Counted from the stretch's first letter, positions 6,733 through 52,488 are shown. The stretch is 64,000 nt of DNA from Chthoniobacteraceae bacterium (GCA_028293625.1 JAQGOL010000036.1:1-64000), one strand, 5' to 3'. The notes: generated from the letters alone by a model not told the origin. Numbers and translations: made by a program.

Positions 6733-7002
6733 ATGAATCAAGCCATCGGAGACCCGGATGAACTGGATGCCTTTGCGCATTCCTTGCAGTCGTATTTGGA
6801 TCAGATTAACGAGGCGACCGGGCAGTTGAACCAGCAGTTTGGAGCCCTCGGCGAAACCTGGCAGGACGCAAAGCGCGCCCAGTTCGAGGAGCAATTCCAG
6901 GAACTGTTGAGGCAGCTTGCGGTCTTCGACTCAACCACTGCGGAACAGATTCCACATCTGCGCTCCATGGCCACAAAACTCCGAGACTACCTACAAAGCT
7001 GA
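6733..7002 (+). CDS. WXG100-like small helical protein, 89 aa
   Basis: A short, all-helical protein of the size of ESAT-6/WXG100 substrates. Two long helices flank a turn containing ALGETWQDAKRAQFEEQF, where the tryptophan at residue 43 stands in the WXG position (W-Q-D here instead of W-x-G). The ATG at 6733 has a good Shine-Dalgarno (AAGGAG at 6720-6725). The longer reading from 6556 would overlap the previous gene and adds residues that look untranslated. It lies upstream of an EssC/FtsK-like ATPase in the same operon, the classical partner of WXG proteins. It may be a secreted or structural subunit; the lack of a strict WXG motif is a caution. Confidence 0.65.
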   Translation: MNQAIGDPDELDAFAHSLQSYLDQINEATGQLNQQFGALGETWQDAKRAQFEEQFQELLRQLAVFDSTTAEQIPHLRSMATKLRDYLQS

Positions 7003-8702: not shown

Positions 8703-8926
8703 ATGAGTTCCATGAAATCGCCGCGGTCGTCGTCTCGGAGGGGAATCGAATGCAGGAAATGGTTCAGGACCAGTTCGGTGCCTCGATTGTCGCGGACGTT
8801 TTCGAGCCGCTGACTGCGGAGGCTCAAAGCTTGGCGTCCGTGAGCGAGGAAGTAGAGACTTCCCTTCTGGTGGTGGATCAAATTGTCGAGGAAGCGCGCG
8901 CACTCGGAGGAATCGAGCCCCAATGA
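8699..8926 (+). CDS. Small helical protein of unknown function, 75 aa
   Basis: A 75-aa acidic helical protein (FHEIAAVVVSEGNRMQEMVQ, then EEVETSLLVVDQIVEEARAL). It is coupled by 4-base overlaps to the genes on both sides. Length and helix-turn-helix-hairpin appearance resemble WXG-type or small coiled-coil subunits, but no WXG tryptophan is present. No function is assigned. Confidence 0.58.
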   Translation: MNEFHEIAAVVVSEGNRMQEMVQDQFGASIVADVFEPLTAEAQSLASVSEEVETSLLVVDQIVEEARALGGIEPQ

Positions 8927-12243: not shown

Positions 12244-12715
12244 AGAACATCTACTTTGGATTGTCTGCGACGTTTCCGGCAGCATGTCGGAGGGCGGTAA
12301 GCACCTGCTGGCGCGTGGTGTGGCAAGAATGTCGGAGCAATATTGCCGCCTCGGATACGGGTGCGCGGAGCTGAAGCTGGTCGCGTGGAGCAAGGAGGCG
12401 CGGGTGGCCGATTGGCTGCCGGACCAGGAATTTCCGCCGGAGATGCTGGTGTGCGAAGGCGCGGCAAGTGCGAAGGCGCTGGTGGGTCTTCTCGGAGAGC
12501 AGCCTCATGGCAAGGTATTACTCATCACGGATGGCTTTTGGCCGGATAATGACGCGAGGACATTGAAGCGCTGGAAAGAACGCCTGCTGCCGGACACGCT
12601 CCGCGTCATCAAGGCTGGCTCGGATGCCAGCCCGCGGCTGAAAGGCGCGGAAGTGTTTTCCGCCGAAGAATTGTGGGCCGCGCTCGACGGCTGGCTGGAA
12701 GGAGGCGCAGCATGA
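12236..12715 (+). CDS. TerY-like vWA protein (TerY-P triad member)
   Basis: A 159-aa vWA domain protein with the MIDAS loop DVSGSMSE at about residues 12-19 and a second metal-site strand LLITDGFWPDN. The usual threonine element is not obvious (SAKALVG lies in that region), so the metal site may be altered. The ATG at 12236 follows GGAGGA at 12225-12230 and overlaps the stop of the FtsK-like gene. The next two genes encode a PP2C phosphatase and a kinase with a zinc ribbon; that trio is the TerY-P triad known from tellurite-resistance-related conflict systems. Its role there is thought to be a phosphorylation-controlled scaffold. Confidence 0.82.
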   Translation: MGKEHLLWIVCDVSGSMSEGGKHLLARGVARMSEQYCRLGYGCAELKLVAWSKEARVADWLPDQEFPPEMLVCEGAASAKALVGLLGEQPHGKVLLITDGFWPDNDARTLKRWKERLLPDTLRVIKAGSDASPRLKGAEVFSAEELWAALDGWLEGGAA

Positions 12716-13425
12716 TTGTCTGGAAGAGCTTCGGAGCGAGCGTCATCGGCCCCGGCCACGTCGCGACAGGCCAGCCGAACCAGGATGCCTGGGCGGCAAT
12801 CCATCGTCTTTGGGGCGATGGCATCGTTGTTTCCGATGGTGTCGGCTCGCGGCCGTTTTCCCAATTCGGAAGCCGCGCCGCCTGTCTCGCGGTGCCGAGC
12901 GCCGTCCGCGCTTGCCTCGGGGGAACCCGATCGCGCAGCGCACTGGGGCAGCGAATCGTATCCCACTGGCTTTCCCTCATTGCCCCGCTCGAGCCTCGCG
13001 ATTGCGCCGCCACCTGTATGTTCGCGTTTCGCGTGGGCGGTGCGGTTCAGTTCGGAATGCTGGGCGACGGCCTCGCCGCCGTGGTAAAAACCGATGGCTC
13101 GGTCGTCTCGTTGTCCGAAGACAAGACGGAAGGTTTTTCCAACGTCACTGCCGCGCTTTCGCCAAACGTGACCGAGAAGGACTGGCGCTGGATGGCCTTT
13201 CGCGAGGAGGATTGCGGGGCCATTATCCTCTGCACCGATGGCGTCTCTGATGACCTGAAAGACGCCGATGGCTTCGTCCGGGAATTCGTCGGCGCGCATC
13301 GCGAGCTTGCCGTGGTGTCGGCGGCCCGCCACGCCCACGAGATGCTCGAAAGATGGCCGGCGCCCAGCCACCAGGACGACAAGACTATTGCCTGCCTTGT
13401 GCGGGAGGAGGTGGCGGATGAGTAA
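12712..13425 (+). CDS. PP2C-family protein phosphatase (TerY-P triad)
   Basis: A 237-aa metal-dependent serine/threonine phosphatase. Family motifs occur in order: NQDAW near residue 23, VSDGVGS near 41, FGMLGDG near 118, CTDGVSDD near 177 and the final HQDDKT. The metal-binding aspartates are all present, so it should be catalytically competent. It has no membrane segment or extra domain. The ATG at 12712 overlaps the TGA of the TerY-like gene, and its stop overlaps the kinase start by 8 bases. It would reverse phosphorylation by the adjacent kinase. Confidence 0.88.
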   Translation: MIVWKSFGASVIGPGHVATGQPNQDAWAAIHRLWGDGIVVSDGVGSRPFSQFGSRAACLAVPSAVRACLGGTRSRSALGQRIVSHWLSLIAPLEPRDCAATCMFAFRVGGAVQFGMLGDGLAAVVKTDGSVVSLSEDKTEGFSNVTAALSPNVTEKDWRWMAFREEDCGAIILCTDGVSDDLKDADGFVREFVGAHRELAVVSAARHAHEMLERWPAPSHQDDKTIACLVREEVADE

Positions 13426-14779
13426 TCGCGAAAACTCGGTTTACCAGGCCAGGTATCCCGCACCGAGACCGCTCGCCGATGAATACGGCAACTTTCATTA
13501 TCCGGCCGATGAGCTCGCCCGCGGGGGACAGGGCGTGGTCTTCCGGACCGGGGATGCCGACCTGGCGATCAAGCAGCCGCTCAATGCCTCCGGCAACCCG
13601 GATAAGAACGCCAATCTGCGCGACCGCTTCCGGAATATCCGCCTCCTGCCATTGCCGCCCCGCATACCCATTTCCCTACCTCTCGCCATCCTACGCGACG
13701 AACCGGGCTACGTGATGTGCCTCTTGAACGGCATGCAGCCATTCAGCGTTTTCGACTGGAATGGCCAAACTGCAACTGAGTTCGGCCAGGAAACTCTACC
13801 GCAATGGCTGGCGAAGATTCCGGACCGGGACATCGCCCTGCAGCTGCTCCATTACGCCCAAACGGGTTCGACCCGGCGCCGCCTCTTCGCGCTCTCGAGA
13901 TGCGCCGCCATCCTGGCCCGCCTTCACAGCGTTGGATTGGTCTATGGCGACATTTCACACAACAACATCTTCGTCGGCGATCCCTCTTCACGCGAAGTCT
14001 GGCTGATCGATGCGGACAACCTCCGCTTTGAAATGAGCGAAGGCGGGAGCGCAGTCTATACGCCGGCCTACGGCGCACCGGAAATCGTGCAGGGACGCGA
14101 TTGCTCCCGCCCGCGCACCGATTGCTGGGCGTTTGCCGTCCTGGCTTTCCGGACACTCTCACTCTGTCACCCATTCATCGGGAAAAGAGTGCTGGAACCT
14201 GATAGCGACGAAGGTGGCTGGGATGCCGAACCGACCGCCAGCGGTGCCCCCGCCGACCTAGACGAGCAGGCCCACGCCGGCTATCTGCCGTTTGTTGATG
14301 ACGAGAACGACAATTCGAATGTTGCCGTCTCCGCATGCCTATCCCGTGAACTGGTGGCAACGCCCGCATTGCGCCGGCTCTTCCAGGAGACTTTTGGCGA
14401 GGGAAGGGCACAGCCGCATCGCCGCCCGGCGATGGCGTTCTGGGCCCTGGAATTGGCCCGGGCCTGCGACCAATCAATTCCCTGCCCCAACTGCAGGATG
14501 AGCTATTTCGCTGACAGCCACGAAGCGTGTCCGTATTGCGGCACATCGCGTCCGGCATTCGCCTGGGCAAAAACCGATCGGTGGAAGGTTCTGATTCCCG
14601 CCGCAGCCAGGGAATTCGCCCTGCCGCACCGGATGTTCCACCCGTTCTCCTTCGAGCGTCACGATGATGCGAGCTACGAGGCGGTCATGGACTTCGCCCG
14701 GAAGACCGCATGGCCTGTGCGGGGCACGGCCAGGTTTCCGGATCGTTTGACCTTTCACTTCGAGGAGGCAGCACAATGA
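13418..14779 (+). CDS. Serine/threonine protein kinase with C-terminal zinc ribbon (TerY-P triad)
   Basis: A 453-aa kinase. The glycine loop is GGQGVVF (residues 36-42) and the ATP-binding lysine lies in LAIKQP. The catalytic loop reads VYGDISHNNIFV near 176-187, keeping the D and N of HxDxxxxN with Tyr-Gly in place of His-Arg. The DFG position reads IDADN near 197, and APEI closes the activation segment. A zinc ribbon CPNC...CPYC lies at about 355-373, the layout reported for TerY-P kinases. The ATG at 13418 is chosen because upstream residues overlap the PP2C gene out of frame. It probably phosphorylates operon partners such as the vWA proteins or the helicase. Confidence 0.87.
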   Translation: MSNRENSVYQARYPAPRPLADEYGNFHYPADELARGGQGVVFRTGDADLAIKQPLNASGNPDKNANLRDRFRNIRLLPLPPRIPISLPLAILRDEPGYVMCLLNGMQPFSVFDWNGQTATEFGQETLPQWLAKIPDRDIALQLLHYAQTGSTRRRLFALSRCAAILARLHSVGLVYGDISHNNIFVGDPSSREVWLIDADNLRFEMSEGGSAVYTPAYGAPEIVQGRDCSRPRTDCWAFAVLAFRTLSLCHPFIGKRVLEPDSDEGGWDAEPTASGAPADLDEQAHAGYLPFVDDENDNSNVAVSACLSRELVATPALRRLFQETFGEGRAQPHRRPAMAFWALELARACDQSIPCPNCRMSYFADSHEACPYCGTSRPAFAWAKTDRWKVLIPAAAREFALPHRMFHPFSFERHDDASYEAVMDFARKTAWPVRGTARFPDRLTFHFEEAAQ

Positions 14780-17700
14780 ATCTCCAGGATATCCCTGCCC
14801 GCATCCTGACCGTCCGCGTCAAGGCGGCTGACAAAGCGCTGCAAGCGCAGCCCGTTTTCTCCGTGGACGGCAGCGCGACTCACCAAGACGAATTCGAAAT
14901 CCGGCTCAAGGATTCCGTTATCCGCGTCAAACCTGTGGTGAATGCCGACATTCGCCGGCTCCACTCCGAGCTCGCCAGCGGCCGAACCATCCTCGCACAA
15001 CTCGCCAATCTCGCCGCTGATGGGAGCATTGAACTTCAGGTCGCCTTTTTCGCCGGCGAACTTTTGGACATGGGTGATGTCCAGGTCGGCGTGGATGAGT
15101 ACGTGGAAAAAGGGATGGCCAGGATGGAAGGGGGTAAGGGCAAAATCAAAGCCGGCCGCCTTTACGCGAAACTGGAGCAGCTTTGCTGCTTCCACCATGG
15201 CGGCAACGCGTTTTTCTTCCTCACCGCCGGCCCGGCGATTGACGGCGCGGTGAAGCCTGAACCAGCGCCGGATGAGGAAGTGAGCGAGGTGCCCGAGGCG
15301 AGCAATGGCGCGGAAGATGGGGCGGACTTGGAATCGGCCGGCGAGCCCGATGAGGTGCGGGATGCCCTGCAAGCGCCAAAACCCGAGCCCACTCGCAAGA
15401 ACTCGTTCTGCGTCACCGGTGACGGCATCCGCTTCGTCGTCACCGCGACCGCCATTCCAGATGGCGAGTCGATCTTCACCATCACGAGGCTGACCAAGCT
15501 CAGAGACGAGCCGGATCGCGCCTTGCGTCTCGCCAAGGGGAAGCTGCGATTCGTCGACTGGACGCAGACGGGAAAGATTCAAGTTCAGACCAGGGCGCAG
15601 ATGACCGCGCTGACCAAGGATGAAAGCAGCTATTTGAAGAAATGGGACGAATTCGGCGACCTCGAGGGCGAGTTCATGCTCAAACGTGCTCGGGAAATCG
15701 GCGCACTGCGGTATGGCCACGTGAGCTCGAATCGCGACGGGACCGTTTCAATCCGCATTGCGGAGGCGTCAGATTTCGCGTTGAACGCCCTGGCAAAGGG
15801 CGAAATTGGGGAAGTGGAGGCCGTCAATGATTCACCGGAATATCTCAAGAATCCGGAATTGACGTTCGCGGAGTTTATCAGCCGTATCGAGCAAGTTGCA
15901 GCCGACGAGAAATTGCCGGGAAAGCATAAAAAAGAGCGAAAGGACGAGAATTCCTACCTCAAGGTTTCCAGCTTCGATGCGGCTTCGAGGTCGCTGACGA
16001 TCAAGACGGAAGATCTTCCTCCCTCCGGAACGCTCATTCGTTCCTTGTCAGGCGAAATTGCGCAAATCAAGCGCCGGATCGCTGCCCGCAAGGCAATTCT
16101 CACTGGCCGCGACGCCAATGGGCAGCTTGGACCTTTGATCGAGGAAAAAGGCAGGATTACGCGAATCCGTCCGCCGCAAAAGATCCCGCCGCTCTCGGCC
16201 TTCGTTCGAGACAAGATCTTTCGGCAGCGGCCGACTCCCAGGCAGGAGGAGGCGATCGAAGTCGCGCTGAACACGCCTGACATTGCGCTCATCCAGGGTC
16301 CGCCCGGCACCGGCAAGACCACGGTGATCGCCGCCATTCTCGAGCGCCTTAATGAGTTGACGGTCAAGGGCGGCGCGAGCCTCAAAGGCCGGATTCTCCT
16401 TACCGGCTTCCAGCATGACGCGGTGGAGAACATGATTGACCGCATCTCGCTCAACGGCATTCCGGTTCCCAAGATCGGAAAACGCTCGGGCGCCGAGGAA
16501 GACGACTTTAATGTCTTTGAAAGGAAGATGGAAGAATGGTGCGGCAAGCTCGCCGCGGAACTCGGCGCGAAAAATCCGCAGATCGCCGAGATCAAGCAGG
16601 AAATGGAAATGAAGAACCTGTGCCTGCAATATCTTCAGGCGCCGACGCGGACGCTGGCGGCGAATCTCGCGAAAGGAATCGCCGGCCTCGGCAGTGCCAT
16701 TCTGGGTGAAGAGCTCTCACGCCGCGCTGCCAATCTCGCGAAAAGGCTTTCGCTCGAGGAAAGCCTCAACGCCGGCTCCGATTCGCCATTGGATGCGGTG
16801 CGGCGTTTGCGTATCCGACCGGAGAGCTTTGCCGATGACGGGCCGGACCGGGTGGCCGACGCGCTGGACGATTTGAAAGATCTCCTCGAGGAAAACGAAC
16901 GCGACCTGCTCGACCAGGCCAGCCTCTGGTGCAAGGAGGACGGCATTCCGCCTTTCCTGAACAGCCTGGCCGCGCTGAAAAAGAAACTCCTTATCCTTTT
17001 CACGGCTCCGCCCGTGTTCCGCGTGGAAAAGCAAAATGACGAAGTCATCGCGCTGGCTAGCGAAGCCGTTAAGAGAATCAAGGTGGCAGGATTCTCCGCC
17101 AAGGATGCGAAATCCGCCGCGCTGGCCGAATTTCTAGATGAGCTCGAAAGCAATCCATACGGGATGATCGACGCGGTTTCGGATTACAGTTACGCCTTCG
17201 CCGCCACCTGCCAGCAGAGCGTCAACCGGCAGATGCAGAAGAAAAAGGGATTCACGGGAGACAACCCCGGCGAGAGCATGGATTACGATTACGTCATCGT
17301 GGATGAGGCGGCCCGCGTCTCGCCCCGCGACCTGATGATTGCCATGGCGCAGGGCAAACGAATCATCCTTGTAGGCGACCACCGGCAGCTGCCGCATATC
17401 GTGGACGAAGATGTGATCGAGAAACTCTCCGAGGAAGAAGATAATCAATTACTCGCGCTCGAAAACGAGGTGGAGCGTGATGAAAAAAAGTGGGTGAATA
17501 TCAGCCTCTTTGAGTACCTGTTCACCACGCGCCTGCCGATGTTGGAAAAGCAGGATAGCTTCCCCCGCCGTGTCACCCTCGACACCCAATACCGCATGCA
17601 TCCGCTTTTGGGGGAATTCGTCAGCCGCAATTTTTATGAGCGCTTCGATGCGTCAGAAAGATTCCGCTCTGGAAAGCCGGTGAGCGATTTCGCGCACGCC

Positions 17701-18615
17701 CTACCCGGCACGGATGGTAAGCCCGCCGTCTGGCTGGAAGTTCCGGTCGCGAAAGGCCGTCACCATTCGAGCGGACATAGCTGGACGCGCCCGGCTGAGG
17801 CCATCGCCGTCGCTCAGCAGCTAAAGACGTGGATGAACTCCGCGGGAGGCCTCTGCAGTTCCCCGGCATTCTCAAAGGAGGACTTCGCCGATCTCTCTTC
17901 GCTGGCGGCTGGTTTGAAGAAGCCAGGCCGCAAGTTTGACGCTTGGCTTGCGGAGCAACTTTCCGATCGGACACAGACCGCGCTGGCCACGTATGAGGGG
18001 CAAAGCTCCGAGGGGCCGGCGCTCATCGACACGCTGACGCAAGACCTGAATAATCTCCTCAAGCGCTCCTCGATTTACTCCCCGGAACGTTTTGACGGCA
18101 TCGCCCTGCGCCCTGCGGTCCAATCACTCCTTTCGCAGGCTCCTTCAGAAGGCACTCTCGACCGCCTCCACCGCCTGCTAATCGAGGACGCTTACCCAGT
18201 GCAACTCAGAAGGCATCCACTCTCCTTCGCGGTGATTTCCTTCTACAAGGCGCAGGCCGAACTCATCAGGGCGAAGCTCGGCAGAATCACGGAGGACGAC
18301 GACAAGCTTCGCGTCGGCACCGTGGACTCGTTTCAAGGCATGGAGTTCGATGTCGTCTTTCTCTCCATGGTCAGGACCTTGCCGACGGGCTGGGAACCGG
18401 ACGACAGCGACCGCGTAAAGCAAGCCAGGCGAATGTTCGGCCACCTCTGCCTGTACAATCGCCTGAATGTATCGATGAGCCGCCAGAAAAAGCTGCTGGT
18501 TTTGGCAGGTGATTCGGGACTGCTGCAGAGTGACCTCGCGGCAGAGTTCATCCCCGGATTAGTGGATTTCTTCCAGCTCTGTCAGACGGAAGGGAGGGTA
18601 TTGCCATGTCAGTGA
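14776..18615 (+). CDS. SF1 DNA2/UPF1-like helicase, 1279 aa
   Basis: A large superfamily-1 helicase. Motifs in order: Q-like FRQRPTPRQEEAIEVAL, Walker A GPPGTGKTT near residue 508, the DEAA box VIVDEAARVSP near 840, VGDHRQLPHIV (motif III), DTQYRMHPLLG near 936, VDSFQGMEFDVVFLS near 1186 and NVSMSRQKKLLVLAGD (motif VI). About 480 residues before the helicase core are of unknown fold and contain an acidic Pro/Glu-rich linker near 155-205. An ATGA overlap joins it to the kinase gene, and its end overlaps the next gene by 10 bases. It would unwind or translocate on nucleic acid within the same complex as the McrB/McrC-like proteins. Confidence 0.88.
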   Translation: MNLQDIPARILTVRVKAADKALQAQPVFSVDGSATHQDEFEIRLKDSVIRVKPVVNADIRRLHSELASGRTILAQLANLAADGSIELQVAFFAGELLDMGDVQVGVDEYVEKGMARMEGGKGKIKAGRLYAKLEQLCCFHHGGNAFFFLTAGPAIDGAVKPEPAPDEEVSEVPEASNGAEDGADLESAGEPDEVRDALQAPKPEPTRKNSFCVTGDGIRFVVTATAIPDGESIFTITRLTKLRDEPDRALRLAKGKLRFVDWTQTGKIQVQTRAQMTALTKDESSYLKKWDEFGDLEGEFMLKRAREIGALRYGHVSSNRDGTVSIRIAEASDFALNALAKGEIGEVEAVNDSPEYLKNPELTFAEFISRIEQVAADEKLPGKHKKERKDENSYLKVSSFDAASRSLTIKTEDLPPSGTLIRSLSGEIAQIKRRIAARKAILTGRDANGQLGPLIEEKGRITRIRPPQKIPPLSAFVRDKIFRQRPTPRQEEAIEVALNTPDIALIQGPPGTGKTTVIAAILERLNELTVKGGASLKGRILLTGFQHDAVENMIDRISLNGIPVPKIGKRSGAEEDDFNVFERKMEEWCGKLAAELGAKNPQIAEIKQEMEMKNLCLQYLQAPTRTLAANLAKGIAGLGSAILGEELSRRAANLAKRLSLEESLNAGSDSPLDAVRRLRIRPESFADDGPDRVADALDDLKDLLEENERDLLDQASLWCKEDGIPPFLNSLAALKKKLLILFTAPPVFRVEKQNDEVIALASEAVKRIKVAGFSAKDAKSAALAEFLDELESNPYGMIDAVSDYSYAFAATCQQSVNRQMQKKKGFTGDNPGESMDYDYVIVDEAARVSPRDLMIAMAQGKRIILVGDHRQLPHIVDEDVIEKLSEEEDNQLLALENEVERDEKKWVNISLFEYLFTTRLPMLEKQDSFPRRVTLDTQYRMHPLLGEFVSRNFYERFDASERFRSGKPVSDFAHALPGTDGKPAVWLEVPVAKGRHHSSGHSWTRPAEAIAVAQQLKTWMNSAGGLCSSPAFSKEDFADLSSLAAGLKKPGRKFDAWLAEQLSDRTQTALATYEGQSSEGPALIDTLTQDLNNLLKRSSIYSPERFDGIALRPAVQSLLSQAPSEGTLDRLHRLLIEDAYPVQLRRHPLSFAVISFYKAQAELIRAKLGRITEDDDKLRVGTVDSFQGMEFDVVFLSMVRTLPTGWEPDDSDRVKQARRMFGHLCLYNRLNVSMSRQKKLLVLAGDSGLLQSDLAAEFIPGLVDFFQLCQTEGRVLPCQ

Positions 18616-20567
18616 CAGTCCTGGATTACGGCAGGCCAAATCCTTTTGGTGAGACCATTGGCCGGCCGCGCAATCTTGCCTGGCCGGTAAATGCCTATCG
18701 GGTCACGCTGCCGAAAGCATCGGATGGCGACGACGGGCTGAACGCCTTCGAACGTGTCATCTTGAAACTCCTTGATGCCGTCGGCGCGCTGGACGCCGGT
18801 GCGCTGGCGGATGAAACCCGGATCCCGATAGATCTGGTCAAAGGCATTCTTCTGCGCTTGCGGGACAAGTCATTGATTGACGAGCGCAATGTCATCATCC
18901 AGCCGAAGCGCGAGGACCGCGAAAGCAAGGAGGAGAAAGTGCCGGTGTTTGCCACGGCGCTCTTGTACCGCGAACTCGTCACCGGAAGGATTCTTCCTTT
19001 CCTGCATTTCTTGGACGAGAATCCATTGCGAAAGCGCGAGGAGGAGCGGTTCATCAAAACACTCAGGGCGGATAGTGAAAATGCGGCGCCTCCCCCGGTG
19101 CCCCGCGATGTCATCGGCGCCTTGCGGGCCATGAAGAGGTGGTCGGAGGCGCGGGGGAGCAGCGAGAAGTTTCCTGCCGTCGAAAAAATCACAATCGCTC
19201 AGCAGCCGGAGCGGCATCATCTCGACTGCCCCATCGCCATCCCAAAGAGCGAAAGCGAGTTTCGCATCGCCGATCCATTCGGGAACGGATTCTCGCTCAT
19301 ACTCGAAAGCGCGTTCGAGCGATTGCTCGAGCAGGATGGGAAGCTGGCCGGGTGGCTGCGCGAGTGGAAACAATCATTGCGCGATCCACGTCCTCCAAAA
19401 CGTGACGACCCAGATGAACGGCCGAAAGAACCGTTCGACACCGACGCCAATCAGCAGCGTTTCCCGAAGCTTGTCGCCAATCTGCGCAAGCCGAAGAACG
19501 CGGCGTTTCGCTCGATTTCCACGATCTACGCCTCTCTCGAATGGGCCCTGTTTTACGCCTGCCGGCGTCTTCCATTTGAGGGCGCGATCGCGAAGCTCCA
19601 ATTTGCCGCGCAGTCCGAACAGCCGGAGCTGATTGGGAACGCGGCGCATCACCTGGGGCTGACACCACCAGAGCGCAAGTTCAATCCGCTTCTGGAAAAG
19701 AAGCTTCAGGATTTTAGAAATGGGGAGGCAGAACTGCAGACCCTTCTTTCCATCGCGATTCTACAGGCGGAGAATGACTGGGCACATCCCTTGCACCGCA
19801 TCGCCTCCACGCACCCCGATCTCCTTATTCGTCTGTCCAACATCAAGAAGAGCCGCGACGAGAAGAGACACGGCCAGGGCAAAGCCGACGCGGCGGATCT
19901 GGAATTGGCCGACGACGCTTTTATGCGCGAGATTGTACATGCGCTTTTGCCGGAAATCAGCTTTTCGGATACACCCGCTGCCGGACCGGATCAGGATGCC
20001 CGCGCCGATTCTCTTTTGGAGGCTCGCGATAGCATCCAGGGCGAATTTGGCTTCCGGTCCTTCAATCTCCTCGGTGCAAACCTGCAGGATCGCCTGATCT
20101 GCGCGGAGAGATTCTGGATGTCCTGCGTGGATGGTGACGACGCGCTCGTTTTCGCCCGTGATCTCTACGCCGCCGTCCAGTCAGCATTTGCGAAGCATCT
20201 GGCCGGAAAATTGCCACCAGATGTTCACGACTCTGAGCTCGCCAACGTGGCGGCAAGGAAGGCGGCAGACGCCGGTCTTGGCGGGACATGGCCGGTACGC
20301 CTGCGCACCGTGAAGATTTCCTTTATCCGCCAAAGCATGCAGGGAGCGGATCAGTCGCTCGGTGCCTGTACGATTGCATTTCTTCTCATCGCGAATGGCG
20401 AAACCTTGCGCGCGGTCGCGAATTCTCAGCCGACTTTCATCGATGATGTCGACATCATCCTCACCCGGAGTGGCCACGGAAATGAACCGCTTCCGCTACC
20501 AAAAGCGGACATCGCAAAGCTTCGCAAAGCGTCTTACACAACCATAAAAACACTTTTTGAGGCCTAA
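18606..20567 (+). CDS. Winged-helix protein with possible HEPN-like segment, 653 aa
   Basis: Unrecognised as a whole. Residues about 45-100 read as a winged helix-turn-helix (FERVILKLLDAVGALDAGAL, IDLVKGILLRLRDKSLIDE). A long helical C-terminal half contains KKSRDEKRHGQG near residue 414, a basic R/H cluster reminiscent of HEPN-type RNase or HEPN-like signatures, but the match is short. The gene sits between the helicase and the McrB-like ATPase, overlapping the first and 3 bases from the second, so a DNA- or RNA-binding adaptor in the same complex is a reasonable inference. No membrane segment is visible. Confidence 0.6.
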   Translation: MSVTVLDYGRPNPFGETIGRPRNLAWPVNAYRVTLPKASDGDDGLNAFERVILKLLDAVGALDAGALADETRIPIDLVKGILLRLRDKSLIDERNVIIQPKREDRESKEEKVPVFATALLYRELVTGRILPFLHFLDENPLRKREEERFIKTLRADSENAAPPPVPRDVIGALRAMKRWSEARGSSEKFPAVEKITIAQQPERHHLDCPIAIPKSESEFRIADPFGNGFSLILESAFERLLEQDGKLAGWLREWKQSLRDPRPPKRDDPDERPKEPFDTDANQQRFPKLVANLRKPKNAAFRSISTIYASLEWALFYACRRLPFEGAIAKLQFAAQSEQPELIGNAAHHLGLTPPERKFNPLLEKKLQDFRNGEAELQTLLSIAILQAENDWAHPLHRIASTHPDLLIRLSNIKKSRDEKRHGQGKADAADLELADDAFMREIVHALLPEISFSDTPAAGPDQDARADSLLEARDSIQGEFGFRSFNLLGANLQDRLICAERFWMSCVDGDDALVFARDLYAAVQSAFAKHLAGKLPPDVHDSELANVAARKAADAGLGGTWPVRLRTVKISFIRQSMQGADQSLGACTIAFLLIANGETLRAVANSQPTFIDDVDIILTRSGHGNEPLPLPKADIAKLRKASYTTIKTLFEA

Positions 20568-20570: not shown

Positions 20571-23447
20571 ATGGGACTTTTCGGAAAATCAGAAGATGAG
20601 CTGAAACAGATTGCCGCCGCCATGGATAAGCGGCAGACCGACTTTGACAACCGCGAGAGCGATATCAAAAGCGGTGAAATCAATCTTGCCCACCAACGTG
20701 ATCTGCTTGCGACGGACAAGGCCAAATTCGACACCGAGCGCGTCGACCACACCGGGGAGTTCAAACGTAGCGCCGAAAGTATTGCCGCTGCGAATGCCGA
20801 TCTGGAAAAGCGCCGCTCCGAAATTGTGCTGATGGAGGCCGGGGCCAAGGCAAACTTTGCTGACGCTCAGCGTGAGGCGTTCAAAGAGGTCGTCGAGGCG
20901 CGGCAAACTAAACTTGATGCACGCCAGTGCGATTTGGACGCGCTGGCTGCTGATGTTGCAAAAAGGCTGGAAGCCCTTCATGCCAAGGAAGGCGATCTCG
21001 CCAAGCGGGAACTCGCCGTAACCGAACGCGAGCAGAAAGCCGATGCCGGATACGCCGATAAAGCCCGGGCACTCGCGGACGAGGCAGCCCGCCAGCATCG
21101 GGCCAACCTGGCGGAGTCCGAACGACTGGAAAAGCTGGCGGCCCAATTCTCAATCGATCACCAGGCATTGGCGGAGAAGAAAGGCGAACTCACCCATCGG
21201 GAACGGGCCGTCATCCTGGCCGAACAATCGCGCGACCAGGGCTTCGTCGACGAGCGCGCCGCCCTCAACGCCGAATTCCGCGACAAGCGCGCCAGGATGG
21301 AGGCAGAAATTGCGAGCACCCGCGAGCAGAAGCTCTCCGCATTGGAGGACGAGATGGCGAAATTGAAAGCCGGGCGCCTGGAGAATGTTTCTCAAGCCGA
21401 GCAATCCGAGCGGGACCGTATCCGCGCGGAAATCGCCAAGGAGCGCGAGGCTTGGATCAGGCAGCAGGAAGACACCCGCAGGCAACTGGAGACCGAACGC
21501 ACCGAGCTTGAAAAGCAGAAGGGAGCGGTGTCCAGTTTGCAGAACGAATTCCAGGTCCGCACGGACGGGCTGGAGGCCGCCGAACGGATCCTCGAACGCA
21601 AAGAGCAGCGTTTGGAGCGGCGATGGAAGAAGCGCGACGACGAACTCAACGAGGAAGTCGAGTCGCAGTTGGCGGAGCGCCGCAAAACGCTCGAAGATAA
21701 AAATGCCCGCCTGGAAGGTGAGCTCGCCGATTTACGCGAATACCTCGGACGTCGCGAGAAGCGCCTTGGAGCCTTCGAGCATTTGGAGCAGCAGCTCCAA
21801 GGTAAGGATCCCGACCAATTCATCGACGAAATTAGAAGCAAGAGAGAGGAAGTCATGCGCCTCAAAGAAGAATCTGCCACTCTTCGCACGGAGGAGATGC
21901 GTGTGCTCGAACTGCAGGTACGGAATCAGAAAACGCGGGCGGACCAACTCGCGCAGCAAATTGCTTCCAACGAAGCCGACCTTGCGGAGGTTTCTGAGCT
22001 TCGCCGCAAGAACAAGCAGTTGACAGAAGACAGCGCAGCGAATTCCCGATTTGCGGAAAACTGCAAAGCAGAAACGGAGAGGCTGACGGCCGAACTCAAT
22101 CGCCTTCGCGCCGCCTACGAGCGTCCCGCCGAGGTGGAGGCCCGCTACAAGGAAATCGAGATGCCGCACATCAAGGCGGACAAGGTAAAGCCGCCGAAGA
22201 AAGCCGAAATGGATGAGCTTGCCTGGCTCACGGGTGTCGCCAGCGCCTGCGACAGCTACGGGCTGCATTTCAACCCGCGCATCCTGAAGGCGTTCCATAC
22301 CGCGCTCAAGACCGCCGAGTGGTCGCCGCTCACCGTTCTCGCCGGCGTGTCCGGCACCGGCAAATCCGAATTGCCCCGGCTCTATTCGCACTTTGGCGGG
22401 CTCCACTTCGAGCCCTTGTCTGTTCAGCCGAACTGGGATTCCCAAGAATCCATGCTCGGCTTTTTCAATTCGATCGACAACAAGTTCGACGCCCAGCCAA
22501 TTCTGCGGTTCCTCGCCCAAAGCCAGAAAAAGTGGGCTGCGAGCACCGATGCCAGCGAGGGCTATCCGGGGCTGGATGACGCCGTCTGCCTCGTCCTGCT
22601 CGACGAGATGAACATGGCTCACCCCGAACTCTACTTTGCCGAATTTCTGAGCAAGCTCGAGCTGCGGCGCGGCATGAAAGGCGCCGAGGTCCCGTCCCTG
22701 TCGGTGAAGATCGGCGCCGGCCTGCCACAGTACCAGCTTCCGCTCGGCCGCAATGTCCTTTGGACGGGGACGATGAATCAGGACGAAACAACCAAAGCGC
22801 TTTCCGACAAGGTGCTCGACCGATCGATTGTCATTCACTTTCCGCGGCCGACCGCACTCAAACGGCGCCTGAAGCTTACACCGCTTGATGGAAAAAACCG
22901 AGGACCTCTCTTGCACAAAAGCTCATGGCAAAGCTGGCTGACACAAGGCAGTTCCTTCTCCGAAGATGATATCGAGCCGTTCAAAACTTTCATCGAGGAA
23001 ACGAACGCCGCTCTCGCCATCGTCGGCCGCGCCATCGGACACCGTGTCTGGCAGTCCGTCGAATATTATATGGCGAACTATCCCGATGTCGGCGCCGCAC
23101 AAAAGTCCCAAGACAAAGGCGCACTAGCGAAAGCACTCCATACCGCCTTTGAAGACCAACTTGTCCAGAAGGTCATGCCAAAATTGCGCGGCATCGATAC
23201 CATCGGTAAGAGCAGAAAGGATTGCCTCGATAAAATCCTCGCGCAAATCAATAACGGCATCAGCGGCAATCGTTTTAATCTCGCTGACGACTTCAACCTA
23301 GCTTGCGAACTCGGCTACGGTCAGTTCATTTGGCAGTCGGCAAACTACCTGAGTGAACCCGCGGCTGTTTCAGTCCACGAGACAGTTTCGATGCCGAATT
23401 CTGGCCAGGAATCCTCGGCCGAAACAGCGCCGGAAACTTCGGCCTGA
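20571..23447 (+). CDS. Coiled-coil AAA+ ATPase, McrB-like, 958 aa
   Basis: Residues about 5-530 are an almost unbroken coiled coil (E/K/R/A/Q-rich heptads). The C-terminal third is a McrB-type AAA+ module: Walker A AGVSGTGKSELPRLY near 592, Walker B VLLDEMNMAHPELYFAEF near 677, and the sensor strand LWTGTMNQDETTKALSDKVLDRS. The DEMN-type Walker B and TMN sensor are typical of McrB/MoxR-related nucleases' motors. The following gene encodes a DUF2357/McrC-like protein, the expected partner. The long rod could place the ATPase ring far from its partner or oligomerise it. Confidence 0.85.
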   Translation: MGLFGKSEDELKQIAAAMDKRQTDFDNRESDIKSGEINLAHQRDLLATDKAKFDTERVDHTGEFKRSAESIAAANADLEKRRSEIVLMEAGAKANFADAQREAFKEVVEARQTKLDARQCDLDALAADVAKRLEALHAKEGDLAKRELAVTEREQKADAGYADKARALADEAARQHRANLAESERLEKLAAQFSIDHQALAEKKGELTHRERAVILAEQSRDQGFVDERAALNAEFRDKRARMEAEIASTREQKLSALEDEMAKLKAGRLENVSQAEQSERDRIRAEIAKEREAWIRQQEDTRRQLETERTELEKQKGAVSSLQNEFQVRTDGLEAAERILERKEQRLERRWKKRDDELNEEVESQLAERRKTLEDKNARLEGELADLREYLGRREKRLGAFEHLEQQLQGKDPDQFIDEIRSKREEVMRLKEESATLRTEEMRVLELQVRNQKTRADQLAQQIASNEADLAEVSELRRKNKQLTEDSAANSRFAENCKAETERLTAELNRLRAAYERPAEVEARYKEIEMPHIKADKVKPPKKAEMDELAWLTGVASACDSYGLHFNPRILKAFHTALKTAEWSPLTVLAGVSGTGKSELPRLYSHFGGLHFEPLSVQPNWDSQESMLGFFNSIDNKFDAQPILRFLAQSQKKWAASTDASEGYPGLDDAVCLVLLDEMNMAHPELYFAEFLSKLELRRGMKGAEVPSLSVKIGAGLPQYQLPLGRNVLWTGTMNQDETTKALSDKVLDRSIVIHFPRPTALKRRLKLTPLDGKNRGPLLHKSSWQSWLTQGSSFSEDDIEPFKTFIEETNAALAIVGRAIGHRVWQSVEYYMANYPDVGAAQKSQDKGALAKALHTAFEDQLVQKVMPKLRGIDTIGKSRKDCLDKILAQINNGISGNRFNLADDFNLACELGYGQFIWQSANYLSEPAAVSVHETVSMPNSGQESSAETAPETSA

Positions 23448-23450: not shown

Positions 23451-26400
23451 ATGTCTGTTAACCTTTCCCGGAACCCGCCTCCTTCCGCGATTGAGGAAGT
23501 CTACGCCGCTCTCGCCGCTAATGGCCCAGATGCCGGACGCATTCGAAGCGTCGTCTCCCTGCGTCACTGGTTTCATGAACTGGGTGAATTCGACCAGTTG
23601 ACCGGCGAATTGATGCCGATGTCGCTCACAACAGTCTGTGAACGCATTCTGGTATCGCAGTCAGATCTGGAGGCGAGCTGTAAGGATCGGCTGCAGAAGG
23701 TGCTCGATCACGTTCGCGAGCCTCTTCTTGGACTGATTAAGCGTCCCGTAGGGAAACTGATACGGGAGCAGGCCATGCTTCCTGTGCGTTCTGCTCGTGA
23801 ACTGGATTCCTCCAGCTTCATGGCCTTGAGCCGCCGTCCTGGGCGGACGATCCGGGAGAAGCTTGCAGGCAAGCCCTATCTCCAAGCGATCCGCCGCAGC
23901 CCCACCTTGGACACTATCGAGAACCGCCTCATGAAAGCCCTCTGTCGGCGATTGACCGAGCTTCTCCAGCTCAGGCAGAAGTGCTTTCGGAACGCCGAGC
24001 CCTCGGAAAGTCTCGAGTTGCTGCAGGTTCTCGACTCTTGGTTCCATGGCTCAGACGCTGTGGGGATTGGCCCGTGGACCAACCTTCCACCCAACAACAC
24101 ACTCCTTCAGCATCGAAGCTATCGACGGCTCTGGAAGGGTTGGCGCTGGCTTCAGGCTATCAACGAAGATTTTCAACGCGACTACCGCCAGCACGAAGAC
24201 CAATGGGCGGAGATTCTCTTCTGGACCCTACTGACCCGGCTTCGCGAATTACCGAACGTCCGGATCGCGGAACAACCGGTTTTTCCAGATTACGATCACT
24301 TCAGAATCGACCCAGGAATGGGAAATAGGAGCGGCGCTTACTCGTTGCCCGGATGCATCGTCAGCTCTCCATCGAAGGCCGAACTGAAGCCATTTCGCCT
24401 GCGCTTGTCCCGGAGCGGTCGTGTTGAAATGGTCTTTGACGGGATAGAAGACGATACTCTAGCGAGCTTCGGATTTGACGAAACTGGAACCGTAAGGGCG
24501 AAGATTAGAGGAGAAGTATTTACGGTTCCGCTAAGCCCCCATGGAGCGGCAGTCATCGCGTCGAAAGTTGTGCCTGCATCACTGCCACAGAGGGCGAGGG
24601 TTTCCGAAGCCTCTCCGTCAAGCCACACCGTTGTCGATTTGGCTTTCATAAGGCCGAGGTTCGGTAACGACCATAGTGAGGGGATGTTCCGCTCGCGGCT
24701 GCTATGGCAGCTGTGGCAGGTGCCCGATCGCCCCGTTCATGAACTAGACTTGGGGACGCAAAACGCCCTGGCTCTGCATCAGTATGCTACAACGGTGAGC
24801 ATATTCGATCTTCTCAGTTCGGTACGGCCAGAGGCAATTTCAGCTGGAACGCTCAGCCGGGCCGCACGGCACTTCAGTCAAAAGATCCTTGACGCTCTTC
24901 AAACCGAATCACTGACGTACCTTGTCCCCGACGCGGTCGACGACTTCAGTTTAGAGATTCTGAGAACTAACTTGAATGCCCGTTTCCCTAAAGCGGAGCC
25001 ATTGCCCCGCAGTATTGCGGCGGCAATGACGTGGCAATCATCAGGCGACTTTATTAGGCACCGAATAAGGGATGGCGCTCACGTCCTTGTAATCGATGCA
25101 GTGGCAGGTATTTTTTCCGCTACACCGCTAATTGCTAGATACAAGCAGCAACTTGCGAAATTGGTGCCAGAGACTCGAGGAATCTACTGGGAACGTTGTC
25201 CGACAGTCAGCGGTCACGCCAATTTTTCCTCTACCGGAATGGCTGTCAATGCACTGAGGAATGGCGGGTGTTTCTTTTCAGAGCCGTTGGGAAACCTGTG
25301 CGGGCTACAGGGAGTCATCGACGAGAGGGACCGAGTTAGTTGGCTCGGCACCGATGAGTCATGGTTTTCACCAACGGTTGGGCTGGTCGACCGTTATAGA
25401 GAATCACGAAAACCAGCAAGCAATGCGTGGGACGACTTGTCTCATGGCTTGGAACCTTTTTTTCGTGAAATCTCCATAAATACGAAGGTATTCCTTCTTG
25501 CCATTGGTGACACAGACCCAGATTTTGTCGGTCTGCCGCCAAGAGAGTTGATCGAAGGGCACCGGGTCGAGTGGGTGATGCCTCCACGCCAACTCACGCG
25601 CGGTGGCCAGATTCTCCGAAAGTGGCAAACTGCAGCGGGTGGCTTCCCGCTGTGGCAAGACAACCTGCCAGAATTGAGCGTTCGTATTTTGGTGAACGGT
25701 AGCTCTAAGCTATTTCATCTGGTGAAAGATATCCCTCCGGTGTCCCCCAAGAGAGGCGTACCCGTGTCTATCCCAATCAAAGACACATTCGATCTCGAAG
25801 CCGGGCACCCCGACTATGACTTCCCTTTGCTGAAGGGAGCCGAAGGAAGCAAACTGCGCTATAAGGCTAAGTTGAAGTCGCCGGCATTTCCGCTGCGTCA
25901 GAACACGCCCTGCAAGTTGTTCTTGACCTTCACTTATGGTGAAGACAACCCGTACGAACTGTGTTTTCAACCTCTCCGTCCAGAAGAAGCAGGATTCCAA
26001 AGCGTAAAAGTAGAGTGGCAGGAATCATTCAAATCCATTCCATGGGAGCTACTAGTGCCCAAATTTCCCCCTCGCAACACGTGGGCGGATTTAAAGAGTT
26101 TCAGAACAGGGAAGGATAAGTCTATTGACTTACTAGCTGAGCTTCAGCGGACACTGGATCTAAATCCCCTAGTGAAGGCTCTCGACTCCTTCTACAAGGC
26201 AAACACGGACCCATTACCGTATCCAGAACGTTCCTGCGGAGAGATCAAGTCCACAAACTGGGATCGTGGCTTCTGCTTCGTGCGGACTCAGTCAGGTGAT
26301 ATATTCTGCCATATTAAAAGTTTTTGCGAAGAAGTGGATCCCGATGAGATGAAGGTGGGGCAGCTCCTCTTCTTCGACATAAGGGAATCAAATGGGAAAG

Positions 26401-27380
26401 TGAGTTGCGCGAATACTGCATTCAGTTCAGAGATGCCGCTTTACTTGGAGCAAGGGCTTCGGAAACGCTATCTTGACGAGGCGGCATACAAAGCGACAAA
26501 CGAAGCCCGTAAAATCGAGGCAATCCTGAAATCACGTCGAAACGCGATGAATATAGCGTGGAACCACGGTCACCATCTTTGCGAGCTTGATGCTCCCCCT
26601 GACCTGCGAAACGCCATTCATACATTTACGAGCCAATGTCTCGATCTGATTTCCATAAAACGTAAAAACTCGAGCAGTCAAACGCTTGAAGAGTCACTGT
26701 CCCGCCTCGAAGACGCGGCGTTCTATTCGCTTTGTTCTTTGAGTGCTGACACGCCTGACGATGTGTTTGAAAGAGTGCGAGAAATGCAGGATCATGAGGT
26801 CAGGAGAAATTGGCTTCCAATCGGACTTCTCATTGGTGACGCTTCCCAAGAACGACAAAAGCGTCTTTATCAGTACTGCGTCAATAGCGCGGCTGAAGGC
26901 GACAAAATTTGGATGCAAATAGTGGGAGTTGCCCTTTGGCGGGCTAAAAACTTAGCTACTGAGTTGCCTTTCGAAATCGTAGAGATGCTAGCTAAACAGC
27001 TTTGCAACATGCTTGCTAGGGAGCCGGTTATTCGTCAGAACTATGAAACGAAGCTATCTTTCGTATCGCCATATATTGTATGCCTGCTCGAGCTGTGTCT
27101 CGGGTTGCTGCGTAGTCGTGAGGCGACTAGCACTGAGGTGAAAAGAGTTCTCGCCGTAGGCAGCCCCCTCGCCAGACGTCTGGAAAAAATAGTAGAAGAC
27201 ATCGACAGGCAGATCCTCGGCTCCGGACTTTCGATGAATAGTCGAGTTTCTTTTCAGTTGGAGGAACCAAAACCAAAAGGTGTAAGAAGCCATGATTTAC
27301 TCTACGCTCTTCAAGCTTTTCTTACGGGAGAGTTTGGCGCAATCGCAATATCGGTAACTAGCGTTGATGACAATGGATAA
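23451..27380 (+). CDS. DUF2357/McrC-like protein with an internal cold-shock domain, 1309 aa
   Basis: Residues about 90-330 match the DUF2357 pattern (PVRSARELDSSSFMALSRRP, LDTIENRLMKALCRRL, then a helical region and QPVFPDYDHF), a family associated with McrB-like ATPases. A middle region of about 550 residues is unassigned. Near residues 929-985 there is a cold-shock/OB-fold motif (INWDRGFCFV-like, here STNWDRGFCFVRTQSGDIFC, then HIKSF), a nucleic-acid-binding element unusual in this family. The C-terminal 300 residues are helical. It starts 3 bases after the McrB-like gene and overlaps the CARF-nuclease gene, so the three are likely co-translated. I could not assign a complete nuclease active site with certainty. 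Confidence 0.75.
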   Translation: MSVNLSRNPPPSAIEEVYAALAANGPDAGRIRSVVSLRHWFHELGEFDQLTGELMPMSLTTVCERILVSQSDLEASCKDRLQKVLDHVREPLLGLIKRPVGKLIREQAMLPVRSARELDSSSFMALSRRPGRTIREKLAGKPYLQAIRRSPTLDTIENRLMKALCRRLTELLQLRQKCFRNAEPSESLELLQVLDSWFHGSDAVGIGPWTNLPPNNTLLQHRSYRRLWKGWRWLQAINEDFQRDYRQHEDQWAEILFWTLLTRLRELPNVRIAEQPVFPDYDHFRIDPGMGNRSGAYSLPGCIVSSPSKAELKPFRLRLSRSGRVEMVFDGIEDDTLASFGFDETGTVRAKIRGEVFTVPLSPHGAAVIASKVVPASLPQRARVSEASPSSHTVVDLAFIRPRFGNDHSEGMFRSRLLWQLWQVPDRPVHELDLGTQNALALHQYATTVSIFDLLSSVRPEAISAGTLSRAARHFSQKILDALQTESLTYLVPDAVDDFSLEILRTNLNARFPKAEPLPRSIAAAMTWQSSGDFIRHRIRDGAHVLVIDAVAGIFSATPLIARYKQQLAKLVPETRGIYWERCPTVSGHANFSSTGMAVNALRNGGCFFSEPLGNLCGLQGVIDERDRVSWLGTDESWFSPTVGLVDRYRESRKPASNAWDDLSHGLEPFFREISINTKVFLLAIGDTDPDFVGLPPRELIEGHRVEWVMPPRQLTRGGQILRKWQTAAGGFPLWQDNLPELSVRILVNGSSKLFHLVKDIPPVSPKRGVPVSIPIKDTFDLEAGHPDYDFPLLKGAEGSKLRYKAKLKSPAFPLRQNTPCKLFLTFTYGEDNPYELCFQPLRPEEAGFQSVKVEWQESFKSIPWELLVPKFPPRNTWADLKSFRTGKDKSIDLLAELQRTLDLNPLVKALDSFYKANTDPLPYPERSCGEIKSTNWDRGFCFVRTQSGDIFCHIKSFCEEVDPDEMKVGQLLFFDIRESNGKVSCANTAFSSEMPLYLEQGLRKRYLDEAAYKATNEARKIEAILKSRRNAMNIAWNHGHHLCELDAPPDLRNAIHTFTSQCLDLISIKRKNSSSQTLEESLSRLEDAAFYSLCSLSADTPDDVFERVREMQDHEVRRNWLPIGLLIGDASQERQKRLYQYCVNSAAEGDKIWMQIVGVALWRAKNLATELPFEIVEMLAKQLCNMLAREPVIRQNYETKLSFVSPYIVCLLELCLGLLRSREATSTEVKRVLAVGSPLARRLEKIVEDIDRQILGSGLSMNSRVSFQLEEPKPKGVRSHDLLYALQAFLTGEFGAIAISVTSVDDNG

Positions 27381-29169
27381 ACAAACGACGTTACACGATG
27401 GCATCAGCCAAAGTAAATTCCTCCTCACATGGTATGGAATTACGGACCTGCGATCCGCATTGGGACTTGATCCAGGAGGGGGACCGGTTTTAGGGGCGCT
27501 CAAAAATGGCGAGTTCACCGAAGTAATGATTTTGGCCTATACGGATCCGTCCAAAATCGGCCCAGAGTCTGACGACGATCAGAGAAAATGGAATCGGTGG
27601 TTGGGCAGCTCCCCTATCGAACGGGAATTGCTGGATCGTCCCCGGGAATTTAAGCTTGTCGACACTTTCTCGAATACGCCGGCTGCGCACCAATTATACA
27701 AGAAATGGCTCAGATCCAAGCTTAGTGAGTTGAGCGTATCCGCAAACGTCCGCTTGTGCGTGAAGGAATTGGCTGCATTAAACGATTCGAAGGGTATTTA
27801 CGATGCGGTCGTTCAGGCCATGGATCTTGTTCTGTCGGATCCTGGGGAAAAGCGTATTACCTTTTTCCTAAGTCCAGGTACTCCCGTAATGGCATTTACA
27901 TGGGCATTCGTGGCTCTCGCCAGTCCTGAGATCGATATCCAAATTCTGTCTAGTTCCGATCCACGGAAGCCGCCTGTTCCGGTGAGCCTTCCCTACGACT
28001 TGATGGCGCCATCTAATCGGCGTGTGAGGGCGGCGGCTGAAGGCGATCTGAGAGAATTTGATGTCGTCTTTCATCTTTTTGGTGAGCAGCGCATGGCGCC
28101 GTTGCTCGGGGTTCTCCAGTTTCCGGCCAAGCGGCATGTATTTGTCACGAGCGACCAGCATTCGTCTGAAATAATGCAGCAGTTTATGCCCCCAGGGGCT
28201 TGGAGTGAACTCCGAGTCAGTCCCTTTGACCCGATGAGTGCAAAGGTCCAGATCCTCAAAGAGGTGGCAGGATTGCCCCAGCAGTCCAGAGTTGGCTTCA
28301 ACTTGACCGGAGGAACGAAGCTTATGTTTGCCGGGGCCATTGCCGCCTGCCGGAAGATCGGCGGTGTTCCATTTTACTTTGAAACTCGCGAACATAGTCT
28401 CATTTTTCTCCACGATTTTAAGTCGATGCCGGTTCGCGCCATTGAGAATCTGGAGCTGTTTTTTCAGGCTAACGGCTTTGCGATCGCAAGGAAGGGTGTA
28501 TGGCAAGACAACCCGCTTCGCCAACAGCGTTCCGATCTGACGCGTAAGCTTTGGAAGGAGCGGAAGGTGATTGCAAAGACCTACCGGCAGCTTTCCGACT
28601 ATGTTCAGGATGAGGTGCCGCGTCCGTTTCTCATTCAGCAGAAGTACTGGGACCGGAACGTGGAGGCAGTTATCGAGATTGGCTTGGAGCAGTCTGGGCG
28701 CGCACACGTATCCCTATGCGGTAAAACGTATTCATTTGATCAATGCCCCGATTTTGCCCGCTATTTGGCAGGAGGATGGTTGGAAGAATACGTGTATCTC
28801 ACCCTCGAGCCGTTACTGCACTGTGGAGTGATCCGCGATTTGCGCGTCGGGCTCGAGGTCACATGGGATGGTCCTACTGGGGCAATCGACGGCCCGATCC
28901 AAGAGTTCGACGTAGTCTTTACCGACGGCCAAAGACTCTTTATCGTCGAATGTAAGGCAGGCGCGGTCACGGGTGACCAAGTTCTCAAGCTGCAACAATG
29001 TGTCAGAAGTTATGGTGGCATTGACGCGCGGGGAATTATGGCTTGCGCATTTGAGCCACGCTCACCGCTCACCCGGAAGCGCGTGGAGAATGCTAACAAT
29101 ATTTCGGGTTTCTACGGGTGGGACATTGCCAATCATTTGCCGAATCACATCTCTTCTAAGCCGTCGTAG
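27367..29169 (+). CDS. Double-CARF PD-(D/E)XK nuclease (Card1/Can2 and DUF1887-like)
   Basis: About 600 aa. An RtcR-like CARF region spans about residues 30-200 (DQRKWNRWLGSS, FFLSPGTPVMAFTW). A second CARF region of DUF1887 type spans about 215-365 with the hallmark FNLTGGTKLMFAGA near 310. The C-terminal domain (about 470-595) has EEYVYLTLEPLL, then EFDVVFTDGQRLFIVECKAG, matching the D and E-x-K of a PD-(D/E)XK nuclease. Such proteins are ligand-gated DNases/RNases in type III CRISPR systems. Here no Cas10, CRISPR array or cyclase is visible, so the ligand source is unknown. Starts at 27364 (TTG), 27367 (ATG) and 27373 (ATG) are possible; all overlap the preceding gene. Confidence 0.83.
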   Translation: MTMDKQTTLHDGISQSKFLLTWYGITDLRSALGLDPGGGPVLGALKNGEFTEVMILAYTDPSKIGPESDDDQRKWNRWLGSSPIERELLDRPREFKLVDTFSNTPAAHQLYKKWLRSKLSELSVSANVRLCVKELAALNDSKGIYDAVVQAMDLVLSDPGEKRITFFLSPGTPVMAFTWAFVALASPEIDIQILSSSDPRKPPVPVSLPYDLMAPSNRRVRAAAEGDLREFDVVFHLFGEQRMAPLLGVLQFPAKRHVFVTSDQHSSEIMQQFMPPGAWSELRVSPFDPMSAKVQILKEVAGLPQQSRVGFNLTGGTKLMFAGAIAACRKIGGVPFYFETREHSLIFLHDFKSMPVRAIENLELFFQANGFAIARKGVWQDNPLRQQRSDLTRKLWKERKVIAKTYRQLSDYVQDEVPRPFLIQQKYWDRNVEAVIEIGLEQSGRAHVSLCGKTYSFDQCPDFARYLAGGWLEEYVYLTLEPLLHCGVIRDLRVGLEVTWDGPTGAIDGPIQEFDVVFTDGQRLFIVECKAGAVTGDQVLKLQQCVRSYGGIDARGIMACAFEPRSPLTRKRVENANNISGFYGWDIANHLPNHISSKPS

Positions 29170-31019: not shown

Positions 31020-31121
31020 TATCGGCAGAGCAAATTGGATATGAAATAGGCCCTGCTCAAGCCAAGTATAAACGATATAATTGGACTGGTTTTTTGTATC
31101 TTTTAGCTTCCAGGAGAGGGC

Positions 31122-31921: not shown

Positions 31922-31961
31922 AGGCCACCAGCCTCTGACATCTACGAGATTCTCCGCTAGC

Positions 31962-33162: not shown

Positions 33163-33173
33163 CGCATGCGGAA

Positions 33174-38003: not shown

Positions 38004-38079
38004 AGCTATTTGATCGCGAGGAAAGACTACATGGCGGTTCCTTCCAATAAGGCTCGATTTTCGGGGCACTCCTGATTAC

Positions 38080-38154: not shown

Positions 38155-38158
38155 CTGA

Positions 38159-41035: not shown

Positions 41036-41060
41036 CCCCTTAACTCTCCCCTTCTTTCCC

Positions 41061-46685: not shown

Positions 46686-46704
46686 TCCTTGCCCCTGCTT
46701 TTTC

Positions 46705-52483: not shown

Positions 52484-52488
52484 CTTTC

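Follow-up and report, generated by a model that had tools for sequence, protein, structure and literature searches.

A double-CARF nuclease of an extended Type III-A CoCoNuT operon in a Chthoniobacteraceae bacterium and a proposed origin of its ligand

Few ligands are known for CARF proteins that do not belong to type III CRISPR, and a 64,000-nucleotide stretch of DNA from a Chthoniobacteraceae bacterium (GCA_028293625.1, JAQGOL010000036.1:1-64000; hereafter the window) raises the question of what could activate a nuclease with two CARF domains in the absence of any recognisable maker of cyclic oligonucleotides. The nuclease gene is the last of a 24-kb operon that is assigned by its gene content to the extended Type III-A CoCoNuTs of the EssC subtype, a predicted antivirus system described by Bell, Makarova and Koonin (2024; PMC11090510). 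That work describes a double-CARF D-ExK nuclease for two of its three extended subtypes, which carry an EssC-like and a SpoVK-like ATPase, respectively (PMC11090510), and the CARF nuclease itself is thus not new, being a member of an already described operon type. No experimental test of this predicted system was found. The initial annotation of the window had singled out the missing ligand and its source; this problem is real, but it had already been stated for the described system, and the annotation had missed that the protein is a known CoCoNuT accessory effector. The reading favoured here, at a probability of roughly 0.55, is that of a ligand-gated CoCoNuT nuclease effector with an intramolecular asymmetric CARF pocket, whose ligand would be supplied by the operon, most likely in the form of RNA ends generated by CnuE.

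The reading frame of the CARF nuclease is intact (600 amino acids, zero internal stops), and the PADLOC model CARF_PDDEXK (PDLC01882) covers it essentially end to end (residues 17-596, E 2.1e-203). In a Pfam scan, Card1_endonuc was the sole match (residues 463-561, above the curated cut-off), leaving a single nuclease domain in the 600 residues. When both halves were scanned separately, CARF1 retrieved RtcR_PspF2 and CARF2 retrieved DUF1887-type families. The proposal of an RtcR-like CARF half holds in the sense that the model of a PspF2-type RtcR homologue matches residues 95-214 (RtcR_PspF2, an RtcR-like CARF in PADLOC, PDLC01995, E 1.4e-11), while the Pfam RtcR family itself gave no match to the protein at E 0.1. 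The NLTGGTKLM hallmark that had been attributed to the DUF1887 half was located at residues 312-320. Structural comparisons used an AlphaFold2 model (mean pLDDT 81, 30-row alignment), which superimposes on Can2 with bound cA4, a cyclic oligoadenylate, over residues 231-596 (Z 23.0), on Can1 over residues 16-599 (Z 16.2, 5.2 A) and on the Csm6 CARF domain over residues 14-212 (Z 15.2). Profile and fold matches together bear out the double-CARF and PD-(D/E)XK architecture of the Card1/Can2 kind that had been read from the sequence.

Each of these relatives nevertheless differs from the window protein. Can2 and Card1 (DUF1887; PDB 7bdv, 6wxw, 8q3z) share CARF2 and the nuclease domain (residues 231-596), including the catalytic E-D-ExK residues and most of the core cA4-contact positions, but each chain of the Can2 homodimer contributes a single CARF domain, whereas the window protein has an additional N-terminal CARF domain, hence two per chain, and its genome lacks a type III CRISPR match. 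Can1 of Thermus (PDB 6sce) likewise carries a pair of dissimilar CARF domains on a single chain, with the strand-4 lysine in only one of them; this lysine, however, lies in CARF1 of Can1 and in CARF2 of the window protein. Can1 is also associated with type III CRISPR and possesses a second, inactive nuclease-like domain, whereas the window protein has only one nuclease domain. RtcR and RtcR_PspF2 are CARF-AAA-HTH regulators whose likeness is confined to the resemblance between CARF1 and the RtcR_PspF2 CARF model; the window protein has no AAA+ or HTH domain and is not a transcription factor.

Residue conservation was scored over 30 homologues from several phyla. Invariant positions comprise T21-W22-Y23-G24, T26-D27 and S169-P-G-T-P-V-M-A-F177 in CARF1, H236, F238, G239, Q241-R242, S262, N312-L-T-G-G-T-K318, M320 and P335-F-Y337 in CARF2, and E473, E513, D515 and E528-C-K530 in the nuclease domain. 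In the alignment to Can2, S262, K318 and Y337 correspond to the cA4-binding residues Thr42, Lys99 and Tyr118, which together with Ser19 form the four cA4 contacts common to Can1 and Can2 (PMC7969007); the counterpart of Ser19 in CARF2 is G239. CARF1 carries the invariant P173 at the position of the strand-4 lysine. Most CARF domains of the RtcR family lack this positive residue, and other ligands have been considered possible for them (Makarova 2014, PMC4012209), while the two-CARF pocket of Can1 has Lys90 in one half and Thr384 at the equivalent place of the other (PMC6981274). Such strict conservation across phyla disfavours a dead or unused pocket. At the level of motif conservation, the analysis gave no sign of the closed or residue-deficient pocket that the initial annotation had regarded as fatal to its interpretation. 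A decayed gene or pocket was ruled out by the invariance of motifs and catalytic residues; the nearby IS66 copy sits behind the gene.

The identity of the operon was traced through plasmids of Caballeronia, Phytobacter and Raoultella, which encode CARF proteins of 38-41% identity, all in one cassette of VWA, ATPase, CARF nuclease, small VWA, PP2C, kinase, helicase, unknown, 'ParA' and DUF2357 genes. Using the proteins of the Caballeronia (EssC-type) cassette as tblastn queries, every gene was found in window 5137-29169 and in the same order, save for the CARF gene, which comes last. With the extended Type III-A CoCoNuT the operon shares VWA, WXG100, coiled-coil, EssC-like ATPase, VWA2, PP2C and zinc-ribbon kinase genes as well as CnuH, CnuE (HEPN), CnuB, CnuCD and the 2xCARF nuclease; it differs in having two VWA genes at its 5' end and the CARF gene 3' of cnuCD rather than between the ATPase and VWA2 genes. 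Assignment to Mokosh was rejected: MkoA models do match the helicase, yet its neighbours are genes of a CoCoNuT.

Across 84,980 scanned genomes, 36 loci with the CARF protein were recovered. In 34 of them, CoCoNuT genes were present near the CARF gene within the flanking DNA examined; these loci, and the plasmids in addition to them, come from hosts among Pseudomonadota, Verrucomicrobiota, Planctomycetota, Lentisphaerota, Spirochaetota, Cloacimonadota and others. The two remaining loci belong to a Deltaproteobacterium metagenome-assembled genome with a deletion form (L044) and to a Campylobacter with a CARF1-only protein (L045). At the former (10013-11035), the strand-4 motif of CARF1 runs straight into that of CARF2 (SPGTPVMAF-NLTGGTKLM) and the nuclease is truncated, as in a pseudogene or a misassembly. 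The latter, from Campylobacter jejuni (10004-10549), is a stand-alone CARF1 relative of 181 amino acids, which may be either a remnant or a CARF1 protein in its own right; on the same contig, a type III CRISPR locus that includes Cas10 and a fusion of reverse transcriptase and Cas1 (RT-Cas1) is separated from it by three other genes. Scans of viral contigs and of a phage collection gave no homologue of the CARF nuclease.

Where, then, could a ligand come from? The initial annotation had seen neither Cas10 nor another cyclic-oligonucleotide source in the window, and this absence extends to the whole assembly (6.83 Mb, 96.4% complete), in which no Cas10 palm2, RAMP or SMODS match was found, while controls matched in known genomes. 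A type III CRISPR locus, which the annotation had considered as a competing explanation if close by, was ruled out for the entire genome on the basis of the missing Cas10 palm2 and RAMP matches, and an SMODS cyclase was excluded likewise. Relatives were covered by searching 34 CoCoNuT-bearing genomes, the window's own included and L020, L044 and L045 left out, as a whole rather than by neighbourhood. The many weak Cas10 palm2 matches in other genomes fall mainly on profile positions 50-133 and resemble GGDEF cyclases, and RAMPs were therefore counted instead. These occur in two of the 34 genomes (G388, G413) and SMODS matches above the cut-off in 11, those two among them, so that both are absent from 23 genomes, or from 22 if a sub-threshold SMODS match in G404 is counted. 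Pfam and PADLOC gave no match to a nucleotidyl-cyclase family for any operon protein examined. The window's genome does encode RtcB, with a full-length RtcR on the opposite strand at a distance of 2.5 kb (G000:C20:9951-14311), RtcR being present in only four of 93 sampled genomes of the class, this one included. Since RtcR was found in only 7 and RtcB in only 16 of 36 genomes, neither is a fixed partner of the CARF nuclease.

From these features we infer an intramolecular pairing of the two dissimilar CARF domains that creates one asymmetric pocket, as in Can1. A bound ligand would switch on the Can2/Card1-type nuclease domain, and non-specific cutting of DNA and/or RNA would halt the infected cell or kill it. 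This ligand would stem from neither Cas10 nor an SMODS CD-NTase and most likely from the operon itself. HEPN RNases leave 2',3'-cyclic phosphate ends. Upon recognition of viral or aberrant RNA by the CoCoNuT, the putative HEPN RNase CnuE would generate RNA ends of this type, which the CARF pocket may sense. A feedback loop in which 2',3'-cyclic phosphate ends are read by CoCoNuT-associated RtcR-like CARFs was suggested by the CoCoNuT authors (PMC11090510); its extension to the CARF nuclease, with CnuE as the signal maker, is proposed here. Two sequence features would support it, namely the RxxxxH motif kept in all 28 readable CnuE homologues and the closest similarity of CARF1 to RtcR_PspF2-type CARFs. 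More tentatively, the nuclease could be activated by damaged RNA without any cyclase, if CnuE-derived ends fill the asymmetric pocket (CARF1 without and CARF2 with the lysine) and RNA cleavage thereby sets off a second round of cleavage, now of DNA/RNA.

Several points weigh against the RNA-end reading. Ligand, binding and cleavage are predicted only, and the AlphaFold2 model, being a monomer, is uninformative on functional dimerisation and on ligand occupancy. The signal of RtcR has been called unknown, and oligoadenylates failed to activate RtcR (PMC9650030). SMODS and Cas10 profiles miss some possible cyclases, mCpol was not among the families searched, no control matched in a DncV-like search, and the assembly is 96.4% complete, all of which limits the coverage of cyclases. 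Moreover, the canonical cA4-contacting residues predicted in CARF2 would favour a cyclic oligoadenylate over an RNA end. Because these contacts are kept, RNA ends and a cyclic oligonucleotide made by an as yet unrecognised enzyme are considered about equally likely as ligands, each well short of even odds, with gating by a protein partner or by something else slightly behind. An enzyme acting exactly like Can1/Can2 on a cyclic oligoadenylate such as cA4, made by an unrecognised enzyme in genome or operon, would also accord with the Can2 fold match, and it represents a minority possibility in view of the window's own genome without Cas10, RAMP or SMODS matches, of at least 22 of the 34 CoCoNuT-bearing genomes without RAMP and SMODS, and of operon proteins without a recognisable cyclase.

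The two other alternatives appear less probable. Control through a partner protein or the TerY-P kinase and phosphatase, with CARF domains that are no longer ligand-gated, would fit the kinase, phosphatase and VWA proteins of the operon, the reported binding of RtcA and RtcB by the CARF domain of RtcR (PMC9650030) and the precedent of the orphan VC1899, which is not regulated by cA4 and has a site unsuited to it (PMC7969007); the full invariance of both pocket loops in very distant homologues points instead to a small ligand or nucleic acid and makes this option unlikely. Least probable is an orphan nuclease that opportunistically uses second messengers of host CRISPR or CBASS systems where these are present. 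SMODS above the cut-off in 12 and RAMPs in three of the 36 searched genomes would allow for it, yet the gene accompanies one and the same cassette in different phyla, its motifs stay invariant also in genomes that lack both sources, and the window's own genome has neither.

The coordinates of the operon genes and of the nuclease domains are compiled in Table 1. The operon includes the TerY-P triad of VWA, PP2C and kinase with zinc ribbon, and the duplicated VWA flanks the ATPase. In CnuCD, the DUF2357 match scores 28.9 bits against a cut-off of 23.3, and one weak cold-shock match (E 0.0016) lies under the Pfam cut-off; cold-shock domains, typically two, are described for the CnuC of CARF-bearing subtypes (PMC11090510). 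An apparent frameshift was observed in the cnuE of Acetobacter persici (L037 17660-19547).

Table 1. Genes of the CoCoNuT operon and domains of the CARF nuclease, in window coordinates.
Feature	Coordinates	Strand	Remarks
VWA protein, first of two at 5' end	5137..5856	+	
TerY-like VWA protein	5886..6695	+	
WXG100-like small protein	6733..6999	+	Pfam WXG100 match on Caballeronia homologue
Coiled-coil protein of EssC-type extension	7006..8343	+	
FtsK/EssC-like ATPase	8923..12243	+	
Second, shorter VWA (VWA2)	12236..12715	+	start overlaps ATPase gene end
PP2C phosphatase	12712..13425	+	
Ser/Thr kinase, C-terminal CxxC...CxxC zinc-ribbon-like motif	13418..14779	+	open reading frame opens at 13268; likely start 13418
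CnuH, SF1 helicase	14710..18615	+	AAA_11/AAA_12 matches
CnuE, HEPN RNase candidate	18606..20567	+	R417-xxxx-H422
CnuB, coiled coil and McrB-like GTPase	20571..23447	+	Walker A GVSGTGKS, GTMNQDE; homologous to plasmid CnuB
CnuCD, DUF2357 (McrC N-terminal) and candidate cold-shock-like domain	23451..27380	+	
2xCARF-PD-(D/E)XK nuclease, 600 aa	27367..29169	+	ATG overlaps cnuCD end by 14 bases
CARF1, residues 16-214, RtcR_PspF2-like	27412..28008	+	invariant TWYG-TD (21-27), SPGTPVMAF (169-177)
CARF2, residues 231-351, DUF1887/Can2-like	28057..28419	+	invariant NLTGGTK (312-318), PFY (335-337)
Card1/Can2-type nuclease domain, residues 463-561	28753..29049	+	E473, E513, D515, E528-C-K530 invariant in 30 homologues

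At nearly all loci, the CARF gene follows the ATPase gene. In the window, as in a Verrucomicrobiales (L010) and a Planctomycetaceae (L011) locus, it lies 3' of cnuCD, and a short Arcobacter contig (L017) may represent a fourth case. The overlap between the ATPase end (12243) and the VWA2 start (12236) leaves no CARF gene at the usual position in the window, and in the contigs of the L010 and L011 genomes the ATPase is followed by VWA2 with no CARF match between them. Both CARF proteins are 51-55% identical to that of the window, and the three form one clade in a tree of 30 CARF proteins (support 100/100), with L017 placed elsewhere. No mention of the 3' order was found in the passages of PMC11090510 consulted, which place the nuclease only in the 5' extension; the supplements may list it. 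The 3' position in these members of the Planctomycetes-Verrucomicrobia-Chlamydiae (PVC) superphylum is a small rearrangement in an otherwise ordinary CoCoNuT.

An IS66 transposase (29435-30898, minus strand) comes immediately after the CARF gene and, together with neighbouring small open reading frames (29435-31960 as a whole), separates the operon from a second defence cluster on the plus strand (32347-48384). This cluster encodes sacsin/Tiamat(TmtA)-like proteins (32347-33162 and 33174-38003), a 958-aa protein without assigned function (38159-41035), a DruE3-like helicase (41061-46685) and a NERD-helicase protein (46705-48384); Druantia III near CoCoNuTs is mentioned in PMC11090510. The adjoining region (48695-61356) holds BREX-like and caspase-type defence genes, comprising a CHAT-NACHT-TPR protein (48695-52483, minus strand), a divergent caspase-like protein (52661-54439), BrxL (56587-58686) and a PglZ-domain protein (58696-61356).

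The CARF nuclease family is widespread, its pocket motifs are invariant and it occurs mostly in genomes without the usual signal makers, and for these reasons it offers a good test case for the direct reading of RNA damage by CARF domains. If the proposed mechanism is true, RNA cleavage by CoCoNuTs would be linked to a suicide nuclease.
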